DNA of 64,000 nt from Candidatus Sulfotelmatobacter sp. (GTDB lineage Bacteria > Vulcanimicrobiota > Vulcanimicrobiia > Vulcanimicrobiales > Vulcanimicrobiaceae). Where the stretch lies: contig DATJRY010000010.1 of assembly GCA_035504415.1 (NCBI GenBank), positions 186,001 to 250,000 of the forward strand, read 5' to 3'. The notes below the pieces were generated by a model, which did not search any database, was not told the origin of the DNA, and saw only the letters and a list, made by a program, of their open reading frames with translations. This document shows, in pieces, positions 44,392 through 51,906 of this stretch. Within the stretch, counting starts at the first letter, position 1, and every line of letters begins with the position of its first letter. The position numbers and the translations under genes are program-made.

Positions 44392-45645
44392 TCACGGAGC
44401 GGGAGTCGGAAACGCGCACGGGTGGCGCGCCGGCGTCACGTGCGCCCACAGGTGGATGAGCCCGGTCCAGTGATTGGGGTCGTGCGCCGCCGGCGTCTTG
44501 CCGCGGATGTACTGCTCTTCGACGAAGACCAACACCGGACGCACGTCCTGATCGACGTCGACGCACGTTCCGGCCGGGATGACGCCGCGCACCTGTCCGA
44601 GCGTCCCGCGCATGAAGGTGCCGTCGGGGTTGACCATGACGACCGGCGGCGCGTCGTGCAGCAAGCGCGGCGCGAGCACCAGCAAGCTCGTCGGATGCGG
44701 CGCCGGCGAGACCCATGACGCCGGCCCGATCAGCGGCGGCACGGCGCCGGCCGGCGGCCGGGAGCAGGGCGGCAGCGAGCCGCTCGTCGGCGGGGCCGCG
44801 GCCGGCGTCGGCGTCGGCGCCGGCGCGTCGCGCGGCAGCGCGATGGCGAATTGCTCGCGCACGTCACAGGCGACGCGCAGATCGCCGCCCGCGACCGCGA
44901 CCATGTCCGCGACGAACGCGACCGCGGTCCGGCCGGCGGCCGCGCCCGGGGCGTGGGCCGCACCGGCCGGCGCGGGCGTCGGCGAAGGCCACTGGGTTAC
45001 CGCCGGCGCGACACCGTAGCGGTAGCGGGTCGAGAACGTCGCGAGGTGGATCCAGCCGGTGCGCAGCGGCGGCTGACCGCCGAGCTGATCGAGCAGCGTC
45101 ACCTCCGCGTCGCTGGTGACCGGAGAGTCGCCCAGCGCCGTCGCCATCAGCTGCGGATAGCGCGGATTGTCCTCGAAATACGACGTCGCGTAGCCGGAGG
45201 TCACCAGCGCGAAGAACGGCCGGCTGTCGATCGCGGCGGGCCGATTCCGCGCGTCGCGATCGTCGTTGAGCATCACCGCCAAGGTGCGCGCCGCCGCCGC
45301 GACGGCACTCGGATCGCTGCTCGCGTGCACCATGCGCGCGGCGATCAACAGCACCGTCTCCTTCTGCCGCTCCGTCTGCGCCAAATCTTGTAGGGCGAGC
45401 AGCGTCATCGCGCTGCGTTGCGGGTCGGCCGTGAACGACGCGCCGGCGACGGTCTCCTGGAGGAGCTTCTCGAAGCCCGAGTTGTACGTCTGCGCGTTTT
45501 GCAGCGCCGTCGCGTGCGCGCCGAGCAGGCCGGTGATTAGGCTGGCCAGCACGCCGAACAGTGCCGCGACCGCCGAGAGCGGCGCCCAGGTTTGGAGGAA
45601 CTGCACCCAACCCGGCGGCTTTGCGTCCGGCGACTCGACACCCAT
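44392..45645 (-). CDS. Membrane-anchored hypothetical protein
   Basis: 417 residues. One N-terminal helix (about 20-42, LSAVAALFGVLASLITGLL), then a helical region with QDLAQTERQKETVLLIAARMVHASS, a Pro/Ala linker (about 222-245 and 280-300) and a C-terminal beta-rich part with VVMVNPDGTFMRGTLGQV and a carboxyl Pro-rich tail. Cysteines are few and irregular. I recognise no family; an extracytoplasmic stress or envelope function is possible. Convergent with pckA. Confidence 0.6.
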   Translation of the reverse strand: MGVESPDAKPPGWVQFLQTWAPLSAVAALFGVLASLITGLLGAHATALQNAQTYNSGFEKLLQETVAGASFTADPQRSAMTLLALQDLAQTERQKETVLLIAARMVHASSDPSAVAAAARTLAVMLNDDRDARNRPAAIDSRPFFALVTSGYATSYFEDNPRYPQLMATALGDSPVTSDAEVTLLDQLGGQPPLRTGWIHLATFSTRYRYGVAPAVTQWPSPTPAPAGAAHAPGAAAGRTAVAFVADMVAVAGGDLRVACDVREQFAIALPRDAPAPTPTPAAAPPTSGSLPPCSRPPAGAVPPLIGPASWVSPAPHPTSLLVLAPRLLHDAPPVVMVNPDGTFMRGTLGQVRGVIPAGTCVDVDQDVRPVLVFVEEQYIRGKTPAAHDPNHWTGLIHLWAHVTPARHPCAFPTPAP

Positions 45646-45702: not shown

Positions 45703-46128
45703 CTATCGCGTCAGGCCGAACGCCTTGAGCAGCACCCGTTTGGGGCGGCGGCCGTCGAACTCGCCGTAGTGCACCCGCTCCCACGGCCCCACGTCGAGCC
45801 GACCGTCGGTTACGGGGACGAGCACCTGGTGGCCGAGCAGCATCCGCTTGAGGTGCGCGTCGCCGTTGTCCTCGCCGGTCTGGTGGTGTGCGTAGTCGAG
45901 GCCGGCCGGCGCCAACTTCTCGACCCATGCCAGGATGTCGCGCCAGAGCCCCGGTTCGTGGTCGTTGACGAACACGCTCGAGGTGATGTGCATGGTGCTC
46001 ACCAGCACGACGCCGTCCCACAGGTCCGCCGCCGTGCGGACGCGCTCGACCTCGTCGGTGATGTCGCGGATCTCGTAGCGCGACGGCGTGGTGATCGTCA
46101 GGTACTCGGTGTGCGTGGTCGTCGTCAT
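45703..46128 (-). CDS. YjbQ family protein (UPF0047)
   Basis: 141 residues, the usual size. Signatures are DITDEVERVRTAADLWDGVVLVSTMHITSSVFVNDHEPGL (broken in families as MHTTAxxxVNDNEPGL), the AHHQTGEDNGDAHLKRMLLG box and the C-terminal LDVGPWERVHYGEFDGRRPKRVLLK. The conserved His and Asp residues suggest a metal-dependent fold; E. coli YjbQ has weak thiamine-phosphate synthase activity, but the native role is unknown. Confidence 0.88.
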   Translation of the reverse strand: MTTTTHTEYLTITTPSRYEIRDITDEVERVRTAADLWDGVVLVSTMHITSSVFVNDHEPGLWRDILAWVEKLAPAGLDYAHHQTGEDNGDAHLKRMLLGHQVLVPVTDGRLDVGPWERVHYGEFDGRRPKRVLLKAFGLTR

Positions 46129-46237
46129 CGTCGTTCTCGCGGGCGAAGGGAGCTTAAGAAAGTTTAAGGCTCGGGCCGAAATGTTGCCTCCTTTTTTCGG
46201 TTCGCTCTCCGAATCGTGAGCTACCGGGTGTGACGAA

Positions 46238-46300: not shown

Positions 46301-47707
46301 ATGGAAGCCATCTCTCACCCGGCGGCGCTGGCGCGAGTCCCGCGCGCGTTCGCCTACAAGCACGACGCGCTCGCACTCGAGCTGAGCGAAGGCATCCTCT
46401 GCGTCGGGTTGCCGGAACCGGAGGACGCGCCGCTGCTCGACGCGCTGCGCGCGACGACGCACCTGCCGATCCGCGCGGTGCGGATGCCGCGCGAGACGAT
46501 CCGCCATCGGCTCCGCCTCGCCTACGGCGAGCCGCCGCCGAGCGCGGAACCCGCCGGCGACGTCGCGCGCCTGGTCGATCGTCTCTTCGGCGGCGCCATC
46601 GCCGCGCACGCCAGCGACGTGCACCTCGAGCCGTCGCGCGACGGCGGCCGGGTACGGATCCGGGTCGACGGCGTACTGCGCGAGCTGGAGCGGATCGATG
46701 CCGCGCGCTTTCCCGCCGTCGTCGCGCGGGTCAAGGTGCTCGCTGCGCTCGACGTCACCGAACGGCGCCTGCCACAAGACGGCCGTTGGGCGATACCGTA
46801 CGAACGCCGCGAGATCGACGCGCGCGTCGCCTCGGTGCCGACGCTCGACGGCGAGCAGCTCGTCGTGCGTCTACTGGACCGCCACGCGTCACCGCCCGAT
46901 CTCGACGCGCTCGGGATGCCGCCGGCGCTGCTCGCCGGCTATCGCGCGGCCGTCGCCGCCCCGTGGGGCTTCATCGTTCTCGCCGGTCCGACCGGCAGCG
47001 GCAAGACGACGACCCTGTACGCCTCGCTAACGCGCCTGGACGCGCGAACGCGCGGCATCTGCAGCGTCGAGGATCCGGTCGAGATGCGGCTCGACGGCGT
47101 CGCGCAAGTCCAGGTCAACGCGCGCGCCGGGCTCGGCTTCTCGACCGTGCTGCGCGCCTTCTTGCGCCAAGATCCGGACGTCGTCGCCGTCGGCGAGATG
47201 CGCGACGCCGAGACCGCCGCCGTCGCCGTCTCGGCGGCGCTGGCCGGACAGACGCTCTTCACCACGCTGCACGCCAACGACGCGCCGCGCGCGATCGACC
47301 GGCTCGTCGAGCTGGGCGTCAACCGGCACGCGCTCGCGTCGGCGCTGACCGCGCTGGTCGGACAACGGCTGGTGCGCACGCTGTGCGAGCGCTGCCGCGT
47401 GCGCGCGCCGATTCCGGCCGCGCTGCGCGCGGCGCTCGCCGAACGTACGCATTGGTACGTCGCCGGCGGCTGCCCCGCGTGCGAGGGCACCGGCTACGGC
47501 GGCCGGACCGGCGTGTACGAGCTGCTGACGGTCGACGACGACCTGCGCGACGCGATCGCCGGCGGCGCGTCGACGACCGCGATCGCGCACCTGGCCGCAC
47601 GCGGCGCCTACCGTCCGCTGCGCGCCGACGCGCTGGCGAAGGTCCAGGCCGGGCTCACCTCGTTCGACGAGCTGACGCGCGTGGCGGGCTGGAGCGCGCC
47701 CGCGTGA
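46301..47707 (+). CDS. pilB: Type IV pilus/type II secretion extension ATPase (PilB/GspE)
   Basis: 468 residues. Short N-terminal N1-like part, then the GspE core: HASDVHLEPSRDG (about 105-117), Walker A GPTGSGKTTT (about 229-238), Asp box near SVEDPVEMRL, Walker B DPDVVAVGEMRD, His box TLHANDA, and the zinc-binding CERC...CPACEGTGYGGRTGVYE. It powers pilus or pseudopilus assembly at the inner face of the membrane. First gene of an overlapping set pilB-pilT-pilC-sigma; no pilin, PilQ or PilM gene is near. The GTGA junction with the next gene indicates coupling. Confidence 0.93.
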   Translation: MEAISHPAALARVPRAFAYKHDALALELSEGILCVGLPEPEDAPLLDALRATTHLPIRAVRMPRETIRHRLRLAYGEPPPSAEPAGDVARLVDRLFGGAIAAHASDVHLEPSRDGGRVRIRVDGVLRELERIDAARFPAVVARVKVLAALDVTERRLPQDGRWAIPYERREIDARVASVPTLDGEQLVVRLLDRHASPPDLDALGMPPALLAGYRAAVAAPWGFIVLAGPTGSGKTTTLYASLTRLDARTRGICSVEDPVEMRLDGVAQVQVNARAGLGFSTVLRAFLRQDPDVVAVGEMRDAETAAVAVSAALAGQTLFTTLHANDAPRAIDRLVELGVNRHALASALTALVGQRLVRTLCERCRVRAPIPAALRAALAERTHWYVAGGCPACEGTGYGGRTGVYELLTVDDDLRDAIAGGASTTAIAHLAARGAYRPLRADALAKVQAGLTSFDELTRVAGWSAPA

Positions 47708-48777
47708 GCCTGGCGAGCGTGCGCATCGCCGATCTCATCCGCCTGGCGCGAGGACGCGGCGCCAGCGACTTGCACCTGGGGACGGCGGAGCGTCCGGCGC
47801 TGCGCGTCGACGGGCGCCTGCTGCACCTCGAGGGGCCGCCCCTCGACGCCGACGGCATGGCGGAGTACCTGCACGCGCAGTTCTCCGCCGCGCAGTTGGC
47901 GCGTTTCGACGCGCACGGGAGTGCCGACGCCGCCGCGCTCGCGGACGCGGACGGCGCGCCGTTCCGCGTCCACGCCTTCCGCCACGCCGGCGGCACGCGC
48001 GTCGCGATTCGCCTGCTGGCGACGGCGGTGCCGGCGCTCGAGGAGCTCGGCCTGCCCGCCGTCGTCGGCACGCTCGCCGAGCGGCAGGTGGTCCTGGTCG
48101 TCTTCACCGGACCGACCGGCAGCGGCAAGACGACCGCGCTCGCGGCGCTGGTCGACCGCATCAACCGCGGCAGCGAACGCAACATCCTCACCGTCGAAGA
48201 CCCGGTCGAGTACGTCCACCGGCCGCTCCGTTCGCTGATCACGCACTGCGAGGTGGGACGCGACGTGTGCGGCTACGCCGACGCGCTGCGCGCGCTGCTG
48301 CGCGCCGACCCCGACGTCATCCTGGTGGGCGAGCTGCGCGACGCGCCGACGATGGAAGCGGCGCTGGCCGCCGCCGAGACCGGCCATCTGGTCCTCACCA
48401 CGCTGCACACCGCCGACGCCGCGCAGAGCGTCGAGCGAATCGCCGACGCCTTTCCCGCGGGCGCGCACGGTCAGGTGCGCGCGCAGCTCGCGAGCGTCGC
48501 GCTGGCCGTGGTCGCCCTGCGGCTGGTTCCGCGTCGCGCCGGCGGACGGATCGCCGTCGCCGAAGTGCTGATCGCGACCGATGCCGTCCGCGCGCTGATC
48601 CGCGAGGGGAAGACCCACCAGCTGCGCAACGCGATCGTCACCGGGCGGGCCGCCGGGATGCAGACGCTCGAAGCGCACCTGGCCGAACGGGTCGCGCGCG
48701 GCGAGATCGCGCCGGCCGACGCGCGCGCCGCCGCACTGCGGCCCGACGAGCTGCGCCTCGCGGAGCAGGTCTCGTGA
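47704..48777 (+). CDS. pilT: Type IV pilus retraction ATPase (PilT-like)
   Basis: 357 residues from GTG 47704 overlapping the pilB stop. GASDLHLGTAERPALRVDG (about 18-36), Walker A GPTGSGKTT (138-146), TVEDPVEYVHRPL, Walker B DPDVILVGELRD, TLHTADA and VLIATDAVRALIREGKTHQL near the end, as in PilT. No zinc CxxC pairs, which distinguishes it from PilB. It should depolymerise the pilus fibre, giving twitching or DNA uptake. It is unusual that pilT is directly co-translated with pilB and pilC. Confidence 0.92.
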   Translation: MSLASVRIADLIRLARGRGASDLHLGTAERPALRVDGRLLHLEGPPLDADGMAEYLHAQFSAAQLARFDAHGSADAAALADADGAPFRVHAFRHAGGTRVAIRLLATAVPALEELGLPAVVGTLAERQVVLVVFTGPTGSGKTTALAALVDRINRGSERNILTVEDPVEYVHRPLRSLITHCEVGRDVCGYADALRALLRADPDVILVGELRDAPTMEAALAAAETGHLVLTTLHTADAAQSVERIADAFPAGAHGQVRAQLASVALAVVALRLVPRRAGGRIAVAEVLIATDAVRALIREGKTHQLRNAIVTGRAAGMQTLEAHLAERVARGEIAPADARAAALRPDELRLAEQVS

Positions 48778-50000
48778 GCGTCTCCGTGTACCGCTACGCG
48801 GCCCGAACGGCGCGCGGCGAGCCCGTGCGCGGCGCGATGCAGGCCGCCGACCGTGACGCCGTGCTGGCGACGCTGCGTACCCGCGCGCTCTTCGTCACCG
48901 CGATCGAACGCGAGGGACCGGTCCGCGCACGGCTGGCGCGCTGGCTGGGCGTGCACCGGCCGGCGCGGAACGCACGGGTCGCGTTCTTCCGCGCCTTCGC
49001 CACCCTGATCCGCGCGGGCGTCCCGCTGCACCGCGCGCTCGGGGTGACGATCGAGCGAACCACCGATCGCGTGCTGCGCGAGGCGCTGCGCTCGGTCCGC
49101 GCCGACGTCGAGCAAGGTGCGCCGCTGAGCGCGGCGCTGCGGCGAGCGCCGGCCGCGTTTCCGCCGCTCGTCTGCGCGATGGTCGCCGCCGGCGAGGCCG
49201 GCGGGATCCTCGACGACGTCCTCGACCGGCTGGCCTCGTTCCTCGAACGCGACGCGGACGTGCGCAAGAAGCTGCGGGCGACCTTGGCCTATCCGGCCGT
49301 CGTCTCGTGCACGGCCACCGCGCTGATCGCGTTCCTGCTGGTCCGGATCGTGCCGATGTTCGCGCAGATGTTCACCGCGTTCCACGTCGATCTGCCGTTG
49401 CCGACGCGCGTGCTGCTGGGCACCGGCGCGCTGCTGCAGCGGCCGGCGGCGTGGCTGAGCGCGTGCGCCGCCGCCGCGCTGGCATCGGCGCTGCCGCTGG
49501 CCGCGCGGCGGTCGGCGGCGCTCGCCGGTGCGCTCGATCGCCTGCGGCTCGGGGTACCGGTGCTCGGGCCGCTGGTGCGCGCGGCGATCACCGCACGCGT
49601 CGCGCGCACGCTCGGCACGCTGCTGCGCGCCGGCGTCGAGCTGCTGGCGGCGATCGACGTGGTGCGGCCGGTGACCGGCAGCCGCCTCTACGGCGCCGCG
49701 CTGGAACGCGTCGCGCTGGCCGTGCGCGGCGGTGAGTCGCTCACGCCCGCCCTGGCGGCGTGCGGATTGTTCGACCCGCTCGTGCCCGCGCTCGTGCGCG
49801 CCGGCGAGGAGACGGGACGGGTCGACGAGATGCTGCTCGCCGCCGCGCGCGCCTTCGAGGCCGACGTCGACGCGGGCGTTACGACCCTGGGCGCCGTCGT
49901 CGAACCGGCGCTGATCGTCGTGCTCGGGGCCGTCGTCGGCTTCGTCGTGTTCTCCGTCTTCTTGCCACTCTATGCCTTGATCGGGAGCGTTTCGAGATGA
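48774..50000 (+). CDS. pilC: Type IV pilus inner-membrane platform protein (PilC/GspF)
   Basis: 408 residues from GTG 48774 overlapping the pilT stop. Two repeats of the GspF domain, each with FxRxxATLIRAGVPLxxAL-type sequence (first at about 65-90; second at about 270-295, RVARTLGTLLRAGVELLAA), and three membrane segments (about 172-195, 218-240, 375-400). It transmits motor rotation to the pilus base. The gene is followed by a sigma factor gene with ATGA overlap. Functional pilin partners must be elsewhere. Confidence 0.92.
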   Translation: MSVSVYRYAARTARGEPVRGAMQAADRDAVLATLRTRALFVTAIEREGPVRARLARWLGVHRPARNARVAFFRAFATLIRAGVPLHRALGVTIERTTDRVLREALRSVRADVEQGAPLSAALRRAPAAFPPLVCAMVAAGEAGGILDDVLDRLASFLERDADVRKKLRATLAYPAVVSCTATALIAFLLVRIVPMFAQMFTAFHVDLPLPTRVLLGTGALLQRPAAWLSACAAAALASALPLAARRSAALAGALDRLRLGVPVLGPLVRAAITARVARTLGTLLRAGVELLAAIDVVRPVTGSRLYGAALERVALAVRGGESLTPALAACGLFDPLVPALVRAGEETGRVDEMLLAAARAFEADVDAGVTTLGAVVEPALIVVLGAVVGFVVFSVFLPLYALIGSVSR

Positions 50001-50710
50001 TGCAGCGGGATGTGGTCCTCGCACGCTATTGCACCGAGCGGACCGTCGAGCGGCGCAACGCCGTCGTCGACGCGTACCGCCACTTATGCCGGCGCGGCGC
50101 GCGCAAGTTCAAACGCGCCGTCAACGACTGGGCCGACCTCGAACAGGTGGCCGCGATCGGTCTCATCAAGGCCGTCGATTACTACCGTGCCGAGCTGCGC
50201 ACGCCGTTCGAGGCCTACGCGTGGCTGCTGATCGTCGGCGAGCTCATGCACTACGTGCGCGATCACGAGCGGCTGGTGCGCGTACCGCGCGCGCTGCGCT
50301 CGCTCGAACGGCGCTCGGTCGCGGTGTGGGAGGCGTTCGTCGTCGATCATCAGCGCGAGCCGACGCGCCCGGAGCTGGCCGCGGCATTGGGCGTGCCGCT
50401 CGCGCTGCTCGGCGACGTGCAGGCCGTGCGCGGCATCGACCACGTCGCGCTGCCCGACCCCGGCCTCGCCGAGGACGCCGTGCGCGTCGACCTGCTCGCC
50501 GATCGCACCGACCCGCTCGGCTTCGAAGAGCGGGTCGCGCTGGCGCTGGCGCTCGACGAGCTGGGCGAGCGCGAACGCGCCGTCGTGCTGGGGACCTTCG
50601 GCGCCGGGCTGACCCAGAGCGAGATCGGCAGCCGGCTCGGCCTCTCGCAGAGCCACGTCTCGAAGTTACTTGCCCGCGCGCTCGGCCAGCTCGGCCCGCT
50701 CGTCGCGTGA
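49997..50710 (+). CDS. Sigma-70 family factor (SigB/F/FliA-like) in the pilus operon
   Basis: 237 residues from ATG 49997 overlapping the pilC stop (ATGA). Region 2 begins with VDAYRHLCRRGARKFK and NDWADLEQVAAIGLIKAVDYYR (about 23-65), with the core -10 contact FEAYAWLLIVGELMHYVRD; region 3 (about 105-150, EPTRPELAAALGV), and region 4 ends in LTQSEIGSRLGLSQSHVSKLLARAL, a clear helix-turn-helix. It is full-length and looks like an alternative factor of the group regulated by RsbW-type kinases. Translational coupling to pilB-pilT-pilC suggests it activates genes for pilus subunits or linked behaviour; the target is inference. Confidence 0.88.
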   Translation: MMQRDVVLARYCTERTVERRNAVVDAYRHLCRRGARKFKRAVNDWADLEQVAAIGLIKAVDYYRAELRTPFEAYAWLLIVGELMHYVRDHERLVRVPRALRSLERRSVAVWEAFVVDHQREPTRPELAAALGVPLALLGDVQAVRGIDHVALPDPGLAEDAVRVDLLADRTDPLGFEERVALALALDELGERERAVVLGTFGAGLTQSEIGSRLGLSQSHVSKLLARALGQLGPLVA

Positions 50711-50727: not shown

Positions 50728-51906
50728 TTACGCCGTGCGACCTCCGCGCACGTCGAAGCGGGCGAGGTCGGTGCCGACGGTGATCGGGCCGTCGTAGCCG
50801 CCCAAGCGCGCGCTGCGATCCGCCAGCGCCTGCCACTGCGCGGTCGTCAGATAGCGCATGTCGCCGGGCGCGAGGTGCGAGAGGACGACGCTCTTGACCT
50901 GCGCGGCGCGCGCGATCCGGCCGATGTCGGCCACGTCGGTGTGCGAGGTGGCCAGGTGCGAGAGCATCGCCGGCGGCATGCCGCGCGTGTGATACGACTC
51001 GAGCGCGATCGCCTCGTGCACCAGCAGGTCGGCGCCGTACGCGAGCGCGATCAGGTTCGGCGTAGGCGTCGTGTCGCCCGAGAACACGATCGACCCGTGC
51101 GGCGTGTCGAAGCGGTAGGCGTAGGCCGGAAAGCAGGCACCGTGCGGCACCAGCAGCCCGGTCACCGTCACGTCGCCGAACTGCGCGATCGTCACCGGCG
51201 CCATCGGCGGCGCGGTCGGCCCGAGCGGGTGCGCGCCGACCGGCGGCAGCGCGATCTCGCGCACGTCCATCAGCCGGCTGATGTCCAACACGCCGGTGTC
51301 GCGCATGAACACGTTGATCGAGTACGCGTACGCCTGCGTGCAGTGCCGCATCAGATCGGTCAAGCCGGGGACCGGGTGATCCGGCTCGGCCGTGTCGACC
51401 GTGCGGCCCGGTGGAAACGCCGGCGGCAGCGGCAGTCCCGCCGAGCCGGGACCGTACACCGGCACCGGACGGCGCAAGCTCTTCTCCGCCGCCGGCCAGC
51501 CGGCGCCCAGCAAGAAGAAATTGTAGAGATCGCAGACGTGGTCGGCGTGCAGGTGGGTCACGAAGATCCCCGCGACGTCTTCGTACTCGAGGCCCGCGTT
51601 GACGAACTGGTTCACGCTCGCGCGGCCGCAGTCGATCACGTAGATCTTCCCGTCGATCACCAGCGCGCTTGCGATCCCGGCGCGGCCCGGTGCCGGCGGC
51701 GGCCCGGCCGAGGTTCCGAGCAGGATCAGCTCGGCGCCCGGCGTCACGCTCGCGGTCGTCGTGACCGCGGCGCGCGCCTCGCTTTCCGTCGCGAGCAGCG
51801 CCGCGCCGGCCAGCGCCGACGCGCCGAGCGACAAGAAGCCCTTGCGGCCCAGCAGCTCGTGCGAGCACCCGGTCCGGCAGGCCTCGTGCGGATGATCGGA
51901 ATCCAT
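50728..51906 (-). CDS. Exported MBL-fold metallohydrolase
   Basis: 392 residues. N-terminal signal-like stretch with GRKGFLSLGASALAGAALLA; only one Arg of a possible twin-arginine motif (RK), so export route is unsure. The beta-lactamase fold has HLHADHVCDLY (metal ligands), a later GDTTPTPN segment and VVLSHLAP near the end. Similar proteins include arylsulfatase-like and RNase Z-like hydrolases; the exact substrate is unknown. Convergent with the sigma factor gene. Confidence 0.82.
   Translation of the reverse strand: MDSDHPHEACRTGCSHELLGRKGFLSLGASALAGAALLATESEARAAVTTTASVTPGAELILLGTSAGPPPAPGRAGIASALVIDGKIYVIDCGRASVNQFVNAGLEYEDVAGIFVTHLHADHVCDLYNFFLLGAGWPAAEKSLRRPVPVYGPGSAGLPLPPAFPPGRTVDTAEPDHPVPGLTDLMRHCTQAYAYSINVFMRDTGVLDISRLMDVREIALPPVGAHPLGPTAPPMAPVTIAQFGDVTVTGLLVPHGACFPAYAYRFDTPHGSIVFSGDTTPTPNLIALAYGADLLVHEAIALESYHTRGMPPAMLSHLATSHTDVADIGRIARAAQVKSVVLSHLAPGDMRYLTTAQWQALADRSARLGGYDGPITVGTDLARFDVRGGRTA

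Follow-up and report, generated by a model that had tools for sequence, protein, structure and literature searches.

This locus raises the question of why the genes for a type IV pilus motor should share a transcription unit with a sigma factor, and what that sigma factor might transcribe. We analyzed a window of 64,000 nucleotides (C10:186001-250000) from a genome of the phylum Ca. Eremiobacterota (Vulcanimicrobiota), assembled as 4.17 Mb in 21 contigs. A preliminary description had placed pilB, pilT, pilC and a sigma gene in a single run of overlapping genes; coordinates and reading frames bear this out, with GTGA, GTGA and ATGA junctions and all four genes on the plus strand:

46301..47707, plus strand: pilB, extension ATPase (MshEN and T2SSE domains; Pfam/NCBIfam)
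47704..48777, plus strand: pilT, retraction ATPase (T2SSE), GTG start, GTGA overlap with pilB
48774..50000, plus strand: pilC, inner-membrane platform, two T2SSF domains, GTG start, GTGA overlap with pilT
49997..50710, plus strand: 237-aa sigma factor, SigB/SigF/SigG type, ATG start, ATGA overlap with pilC

Because the metallo-beta-lactamase-like gene downstream (50728-51906) and the UPF0047 gene upstream (45703-46128) both lie on the opposite strand, the transcription unit consists of pilB, pilT, pilC and the sigma gene. PilT scored above the TIGR01420 cut-off (368.8 versus 319.1 bits), and PilB and PilT are the only T2SSE-type ATPases of this kind encoded in the genome. The type IVa pilus set is complete, comprising PilB, PilT, PilC, an N_methyl pilin, prepilin peptidase, PilM and PilQ; the PilN and PilP-like proteins are without a Pfam match and were named from their position and their relatives. 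The N-terminal MshEN domain of PilB (window 46301-46550) scored 39.8 bits; this family is known for binding c-di-GMP, which the PilB motor may also sense through it. Nearby, a 417-aa open reading frame on the minus strand (window 44392-45645) has no Pfam match.

The sigma protein contains sigma-70 regions 2 and 4 (PF04542, PF04545), and the closest solved chains, 8x6g_H and 1l0o_C, are both sigma factors. Its best NCBIfam model was TIGR02980 (SigB/F/G) at 144.8 bits, below the cut-off of 234.35, followed by the cyanobacterial SigF model PRK07408 at 110.2 bits (cut-off 261), while the FliA_WhiG family reached 70.5 bits (cut-off 189.6). The protein is a divergent relative of the group 3 sigmas of SigB/F/G type, not a certified member of the family. 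Inspection of the gene lists at the locus found no RsbW/SpoIIAB-like anti-sigma factor among the genes neighboring the sigma gene.

To place the arrangement in a wider context, we surveyed 99 genomes of the family, 61 of which carry pilC. The sigma gene directly follows pilC in 52 of the 61, spread over 24 genera, on the same strand and with a gap of -6 to +54 bp (49 genomes from the main count, which covers the 24 genera, together with G032, G035 and G038). It precedes pilB in another six, five of them intact and one (G075) with the same order split across two contigs, and in the remaining three (G095, G097 and G004) the contig ends at the pil locus. The sigma gene is thus found inside the pil locus in 58/61 pilC-bearing genomes, none of the 61 has a complete pil locus without it, and the adjacency of pilC and sigma exceeds chance. 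Elsewhere in the phylum, order f2 and class f3 have the pair too, as do families f7, f9, f12 and f16, which represent further classes. Outside it, a Sericytochromatia contig (L098) reads pilB-pilT-pilC-sigma and an Obscuribacterales contig (L122) reads sigma-pilT, the two sigma proteins matching PRK07408 SigF best (203 and 197 bits, respectively, below the cut-off of 261). The four-gene order, proposed earlier as something to look for in related genomes, is hence conserved across the phylum and not unique to this genome. One contig labeled Rhodospirillales (L081; CAJCIN010000292, apparently the same as G063:C292) carries an Eremiobacterota-type sigma-pilB-pilT locus, and its bin label looks wrong.

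The usual gene order is ftsA-ftsZ-...-pilB-pilT-pilC-sigma-pilA-CcdA-(TPR)-pilD-pilM-pilN-...-pilQ-aroC-aroK, and comparison of loci indicates that ftsZ-pilB-T-C-sigma-pilA-...-pilM-N-pilQ-aroC is the ancestral layout. In the genome studied here, the structural operon (C10 35949-41947, encoding PilA, CcdA-like, TPR, PilD-like, PilM, PilN, PilO/P-like and PilQ proteins) lies ~190 kb from the motor-sigma operon, and the corresponding distance in G087, G088 and G096 is 207-250 kb. The structural genes of G092 are found ~5 kb downstream of the motor-sigma operon, and in G089 the sigma gene directly precedes pilA, with no motor genes found. The earlier remark that no pilin, secretin or PilM/N gene accompanies the motor genes therefore holds for this genome but not as a general trait: pilA directly follows the sigma gene elsewhere, and the absence reflects a derived split of the block in this genus. 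A second layout, arrangement B, consists of a sigma-pilB-pilT-pilC-pilA operon with response regulator and histidine kinase (RR-HK) genes divergent from sigma; homologues of the RR-HK genes also diverge from sigma in some pil-less loci (L078; the response regulator only in L076). Directly after pilA, at L040:12792-13442, lies a gene for a CcdA/DsbD-like membrane protein that is kept in most arrangement-A pil clusters.

The preliminary description had suggested searching for sigma-dependent promoters upstream of remote pilin genes, and a conserved element resembling such a promoter is present there. Within the genus, the DNA upstream of pilA is otherwise unalignable, with GCAT-N16-GGGCACC retained, reading GCATAG-N14-GGGCACC in several genomes. 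GGGCAC occurred 85-25 nt before the pilA FTL codon in 27 of 38 loci (mean 1.5 and maximum 6 in 500 rounds of dinucleotide shuffling), and the relaxed form [GT]GGCA[CT] in 32/38 (shuffle mean 3.8, maximum 10), corresponding to 18 of 24 genera; in the other six, not even the relaxed form was seen. The tetramer preceding the 16-nt spacer is retained while the letters of the spacer vary, and whereas it reads GCAT in the genus, it is mostly GTCC, GTCA or GTCG beyond it. GGGCAC was absent before pilB (0/32), before pilA inside the sigma-headed operon of arrangement B (0/4), and before control genes (0/9 ftsZ, 0/13 aroC, 0/43 pilM, 0/38 pilQ, 0/33 pilT and 0/34 pilC); it preceded ccdA in 2/38 and a response regulator in 3/7, and GGGCACT or GGGTACT stands before several response regulator genes of arrangement B. 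A different candidate upstream of pilA, GTTT...GGGGTGC, had the look of a textbook SigB/F promoter and was dropped, as it is not conserved and is farther from pilA than the conserved element. The -10 boxes of SigB/F-type promoters are GGGTAT-like, and by inference it is the product of the sigma gene that recognizes GGGCAC.

GCAT-N16-GGGCAC was defined at pilA and then tested at the minor-pilin operon as a held-out locus. In this genome, the minor-pilin operon (C6:43557) carries GCATAGCGCCGTCCGGACGCGGGCACT just before its start, and in 8/10 genomes of the genus the element precedes the operon, its spacer differing from genome to genome. Orthologues in G091, G096, G093, G088, G095, G087 and G094 have GCAT-N16-GGGCACC, and those in G089 and G090 keep GGGCACC with the tetramers CGAT and AACT, respectively. 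The variant GACT-N16-GGGCACC is found before a third pilin-like gene (C14:4002, minus strand) and before the RR-HK pair adjoining pilQ. The former is a lone gene (L042:2716-4002) with an rpoC-like gene a few kb away, and a pilin-like gene of G094 (L260) likewise bears the GGGCAC element; the latter (L040:5285-7184, equivalent to C10:33284-35183) encodes a histidine kinase and a response regulator of the OmpR type (PF00072 and PF00486). G094 has the element at all three pilin loci, although no motor-sigma operon was detected in its draft assembly.

Genome-wide, the exact pattern G[CA][AC]T-N16-GGGCAC[CT] gave 22 sites compared to 12 for a reversed control, a weakly raised count; these sites were already known when the -35 was widened to GMMT, and the GCAT version constitutes the independent test. 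Only 4 of the 22 are in a clear promoter position, intergenic and immediately ahead of a start, namely those before pilA, the minor pilins, the pilin-like gene and the RR-HK pair; one more is located at the end of an open reading frame, 10 nt ahead of another, and the rest fall within open reading frames. Allowing one mismatch in GCAT-N16-GGGCACC, the genome showed no overall enrichment (76 versus 76), and the element is therefore informative only with exact spacing and position.

The motor-sigma operon is preceded by signals of another kind:

46154..46168, plus strand: TTAAG-N5-TTAAG direct repeat (period 10 bp) ahead of pilB, a candidate box for a response regulator
46184..46189, plus strand: TTGCCT, sigma70-like -35 of the motor-sigma operon, conserved in the genus; the -10 is weak here

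The arrangement TTAAG-N5-TTAA[GT]-N15-AATnTTGCCT precedes pilB at fixed spacing in all eight genomes of the genus examined, and the TTAAG repeat occurs once in the 64-kb window. In other genera, pilB is preceded by a ACATTAAGG box and then TTGNCA-N17-GATAAA. This region reads as a housekeeping promoter combined with a candidate site for an OmpR-type regulator, and a response regulator would be expected to bind at the TTAAG repeats.

Together, these data point to a two-step type IV pilus program, which we consider probable, with the motor-sigma operon expressed early and the pilins late. In the first step, pilB, pilT, pilC and the sigma gene would be transcribed together from the sigma70-type (housekeeping) promoter, probably aided by a response regulator at the TTAAG repeats. 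The SigB/F-type sigma would then direct RNA polymerase to G[CA][AC]T-N16-GGGCAC[CT] promoters of the late genes, that is, the pilA...pilQ operon, the minor-pilin operon, the third pilin-like gene and the RR-HK pair beside pilQ, such that pilins would be transcribed only after the motor proteins and their sigma had been made. Sigma-driven expression of the OmpR-type RR-HK pair would close a plausible positive loop, running from the response regulator to motor and sigma and back to RR-HK. The order in time is what these promoter assignments predict. In arrangement B, pilA is part of the sigma-headed operon, and the second step would therefore be needless for pilA. This weighs against the program, as do the six genera without the relaxed element, the -35 that differs between genera and the weakly raised genome-wide count. 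The idea that a co-translated sigma links the motor proteins to remote targets, perhaps the pilins, gains support from the conserved arrangement and from the element before the pilins.

Whether the sigma serves the pilus alone is a separate matter, on which the solo copies bear. At least 14 of the 18 genomes of genus g5, which lack pilC, retain a sigma gene behind a promoter and leader like those of pilB, and no N_methyl pilin was detected in the seven g5 genomes tested; G076 likewise kept the sigma without pilins or pilC. These solo genes sit between ftsZ and aroC (g5 loci L080, L082, L088, L091, L093, L102, L147 and L160; G076 locus L150). In a tree built without photosynthetic cyanobacterial sequences, a single clade with 100/100 support unites the sigmas of the family with those of its sister family (order f2), and the solo sigmas of g5 and G076 nest inside the pil-linked ones. 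We had taken the g5 copy for a paralogue, a reading dropped because the ftsZ-sigma-aroC synteny and the tree place it in the pil-linked clade. Tree and synteny indicate that pili were lost while the sigma was kept at least twice; the sigma is therefore not always pilus-only, and it presumably has other targets in g5 and G076. For pilins as sigma targets, the earlier suggestion is thus favored by the element before the remote pilins, but a role restricted to the pilus is not general, given a genus in which the sigma outlives the pili.

The same persistence, the main evidence for a role that can reach beyond pili, also speaks for regarding the sigma as a broader envelope or stress regulator housed in the pil locus, with pilins among its targets and the operon link setting only its level. 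Passages of a Synechocystis study in which SigF was also needed for survival of salt and high light (PMC2758279) agree with such a role. In this genome, however, the clear promoter-positioned matches are confined to pilus genes and the adjoining two-component system, and the nesting of solo sigmas within pil-linked ones allows for later re-use; we hold this reading to be possible, though we would not expect it to prove correct. It is unlikely that the sigma is a mere positional passenger of a conserved ftsZ-pil-aro block and that another sigma reads the GGGCAC promoters. The block is indeed syntenic over many genera, and other SigF-type paralogues in the genome (e.g., C13:44463, ~35% identical) could read the element, but the sigma gene occupies two distinct pil-linked positions, after pilC or before pilB with divergent RR-HK genes, and in the genus studied here, where the locus is divided, it has stayed with the motor genes. 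Moreover, the element avoids pilB and disappears before pilA in arrangement B.

Slightly less probable still is that GGGCAC represents the -24 box of a sigma54 promoter or a regulator site instead of a SigB/F-type promoter. GGGCAC does resemble the TGGCAC -24 box, and relaxed TGGCAC forms occur, but the TTGCA -12 partner is absent at the needed spacing, the element ends ~10-13 nt before the start codon in three loci, too close for a -24 box, and the upstream tetramer is kept at its 16-nt distance across a variable spacer. The sigma54 reading was rejected on account of the missing partner and the proximity to the start codons.

Accepting the two-step program, we tentatively propose, at somewhat less than even confidence, that a flagellum-like hierarchy with the sigma in the motor operon is ancestral to the phylum and early-branching Cyanobacteriota, with the SigF-pilA link as its relic and the sigma re-used after pilus loss. 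This would suggest an evolutionary origin for the cyanobacterial SigF-pilin link, and the survival of the sigma after pilus loss would offer a clean case for the re-use of a dedicated regulator. A little-studied phylum also gains a testable rule for pilus timing, with a predicted promoter and a target list, and the model can be tested in Vulcanimicrobium alpinus, a cultured, piliated and phototactic relative (PMC9758169).

Elements of this program have counterparts in known systems. With FliA (sigma28), early machine genes supply the sigma that switches on late filament genes; here the sigma belongs to a different group, the machine is a pilus instead of a flagellum, and no FlgM-like checkpoint was found. 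In Pseudomonas and Myxococcus, pilA is likewise the meeting point of two-component control, by PilSR, and an alternative sigma, sigma54. In contrast to the PilSR system (PMC6058289), the regulator here is OmpR-type and not NtrC-type, and there is no sigma54 promoter. For Rubrobacter, the passages on WhiG-RsiG describe an alternative sigma that is predicted to transcribe the pil units, for which start sites were mapped; it is of the flagellar type, uses TAAA/GCCGATAA promoters and is paired with an anti-sigma bound to c-di-GMP (PMC8325347), whereas the present one is of the SigB/F type, its predicted promoters carry GGGCAC, and no anti-sigma gene was noticed next to its own.

The proposed program also resembles cyanobacterial SigF-pilA control, with which it has in common a SigB/F-type sigma and, by prediction, control of the major pilin and a narrow regulon. 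According to the passages on Synechocystis, SigF directly transcribes pilA1 from a TAGGC...GGTAA core promoter, is required for pili and autoregulates (PMC2758279). Those on Nostoc punctiforme report that only pilA, among characterized genes, is strictly sigF-dependent, that SigJ drives pilB-C and pilM-Q via a J-box with a conserved trio of Gs, and that sigF is perhaps co-transcribed with hypothetical genes, its presence in a pil operon not being reported (PMC6495340). These passages on cyanobacteria and Rubrobacter (PMC2758279, PMC6495340, PMC8325347) do not mention a motor operon that encodes a sigma, and our literature search found no report of one for Eremiobacterota. Alternative-sigma control of pilins is already known, and the encoding of the sigma within the motor operon appears to be the new part: unlike in the cyanobacterial SigF systems, the sigma gene here ends the pilBTC operon, the operon itself is without the GGGCAC element, and the pilins would follow as a second step.
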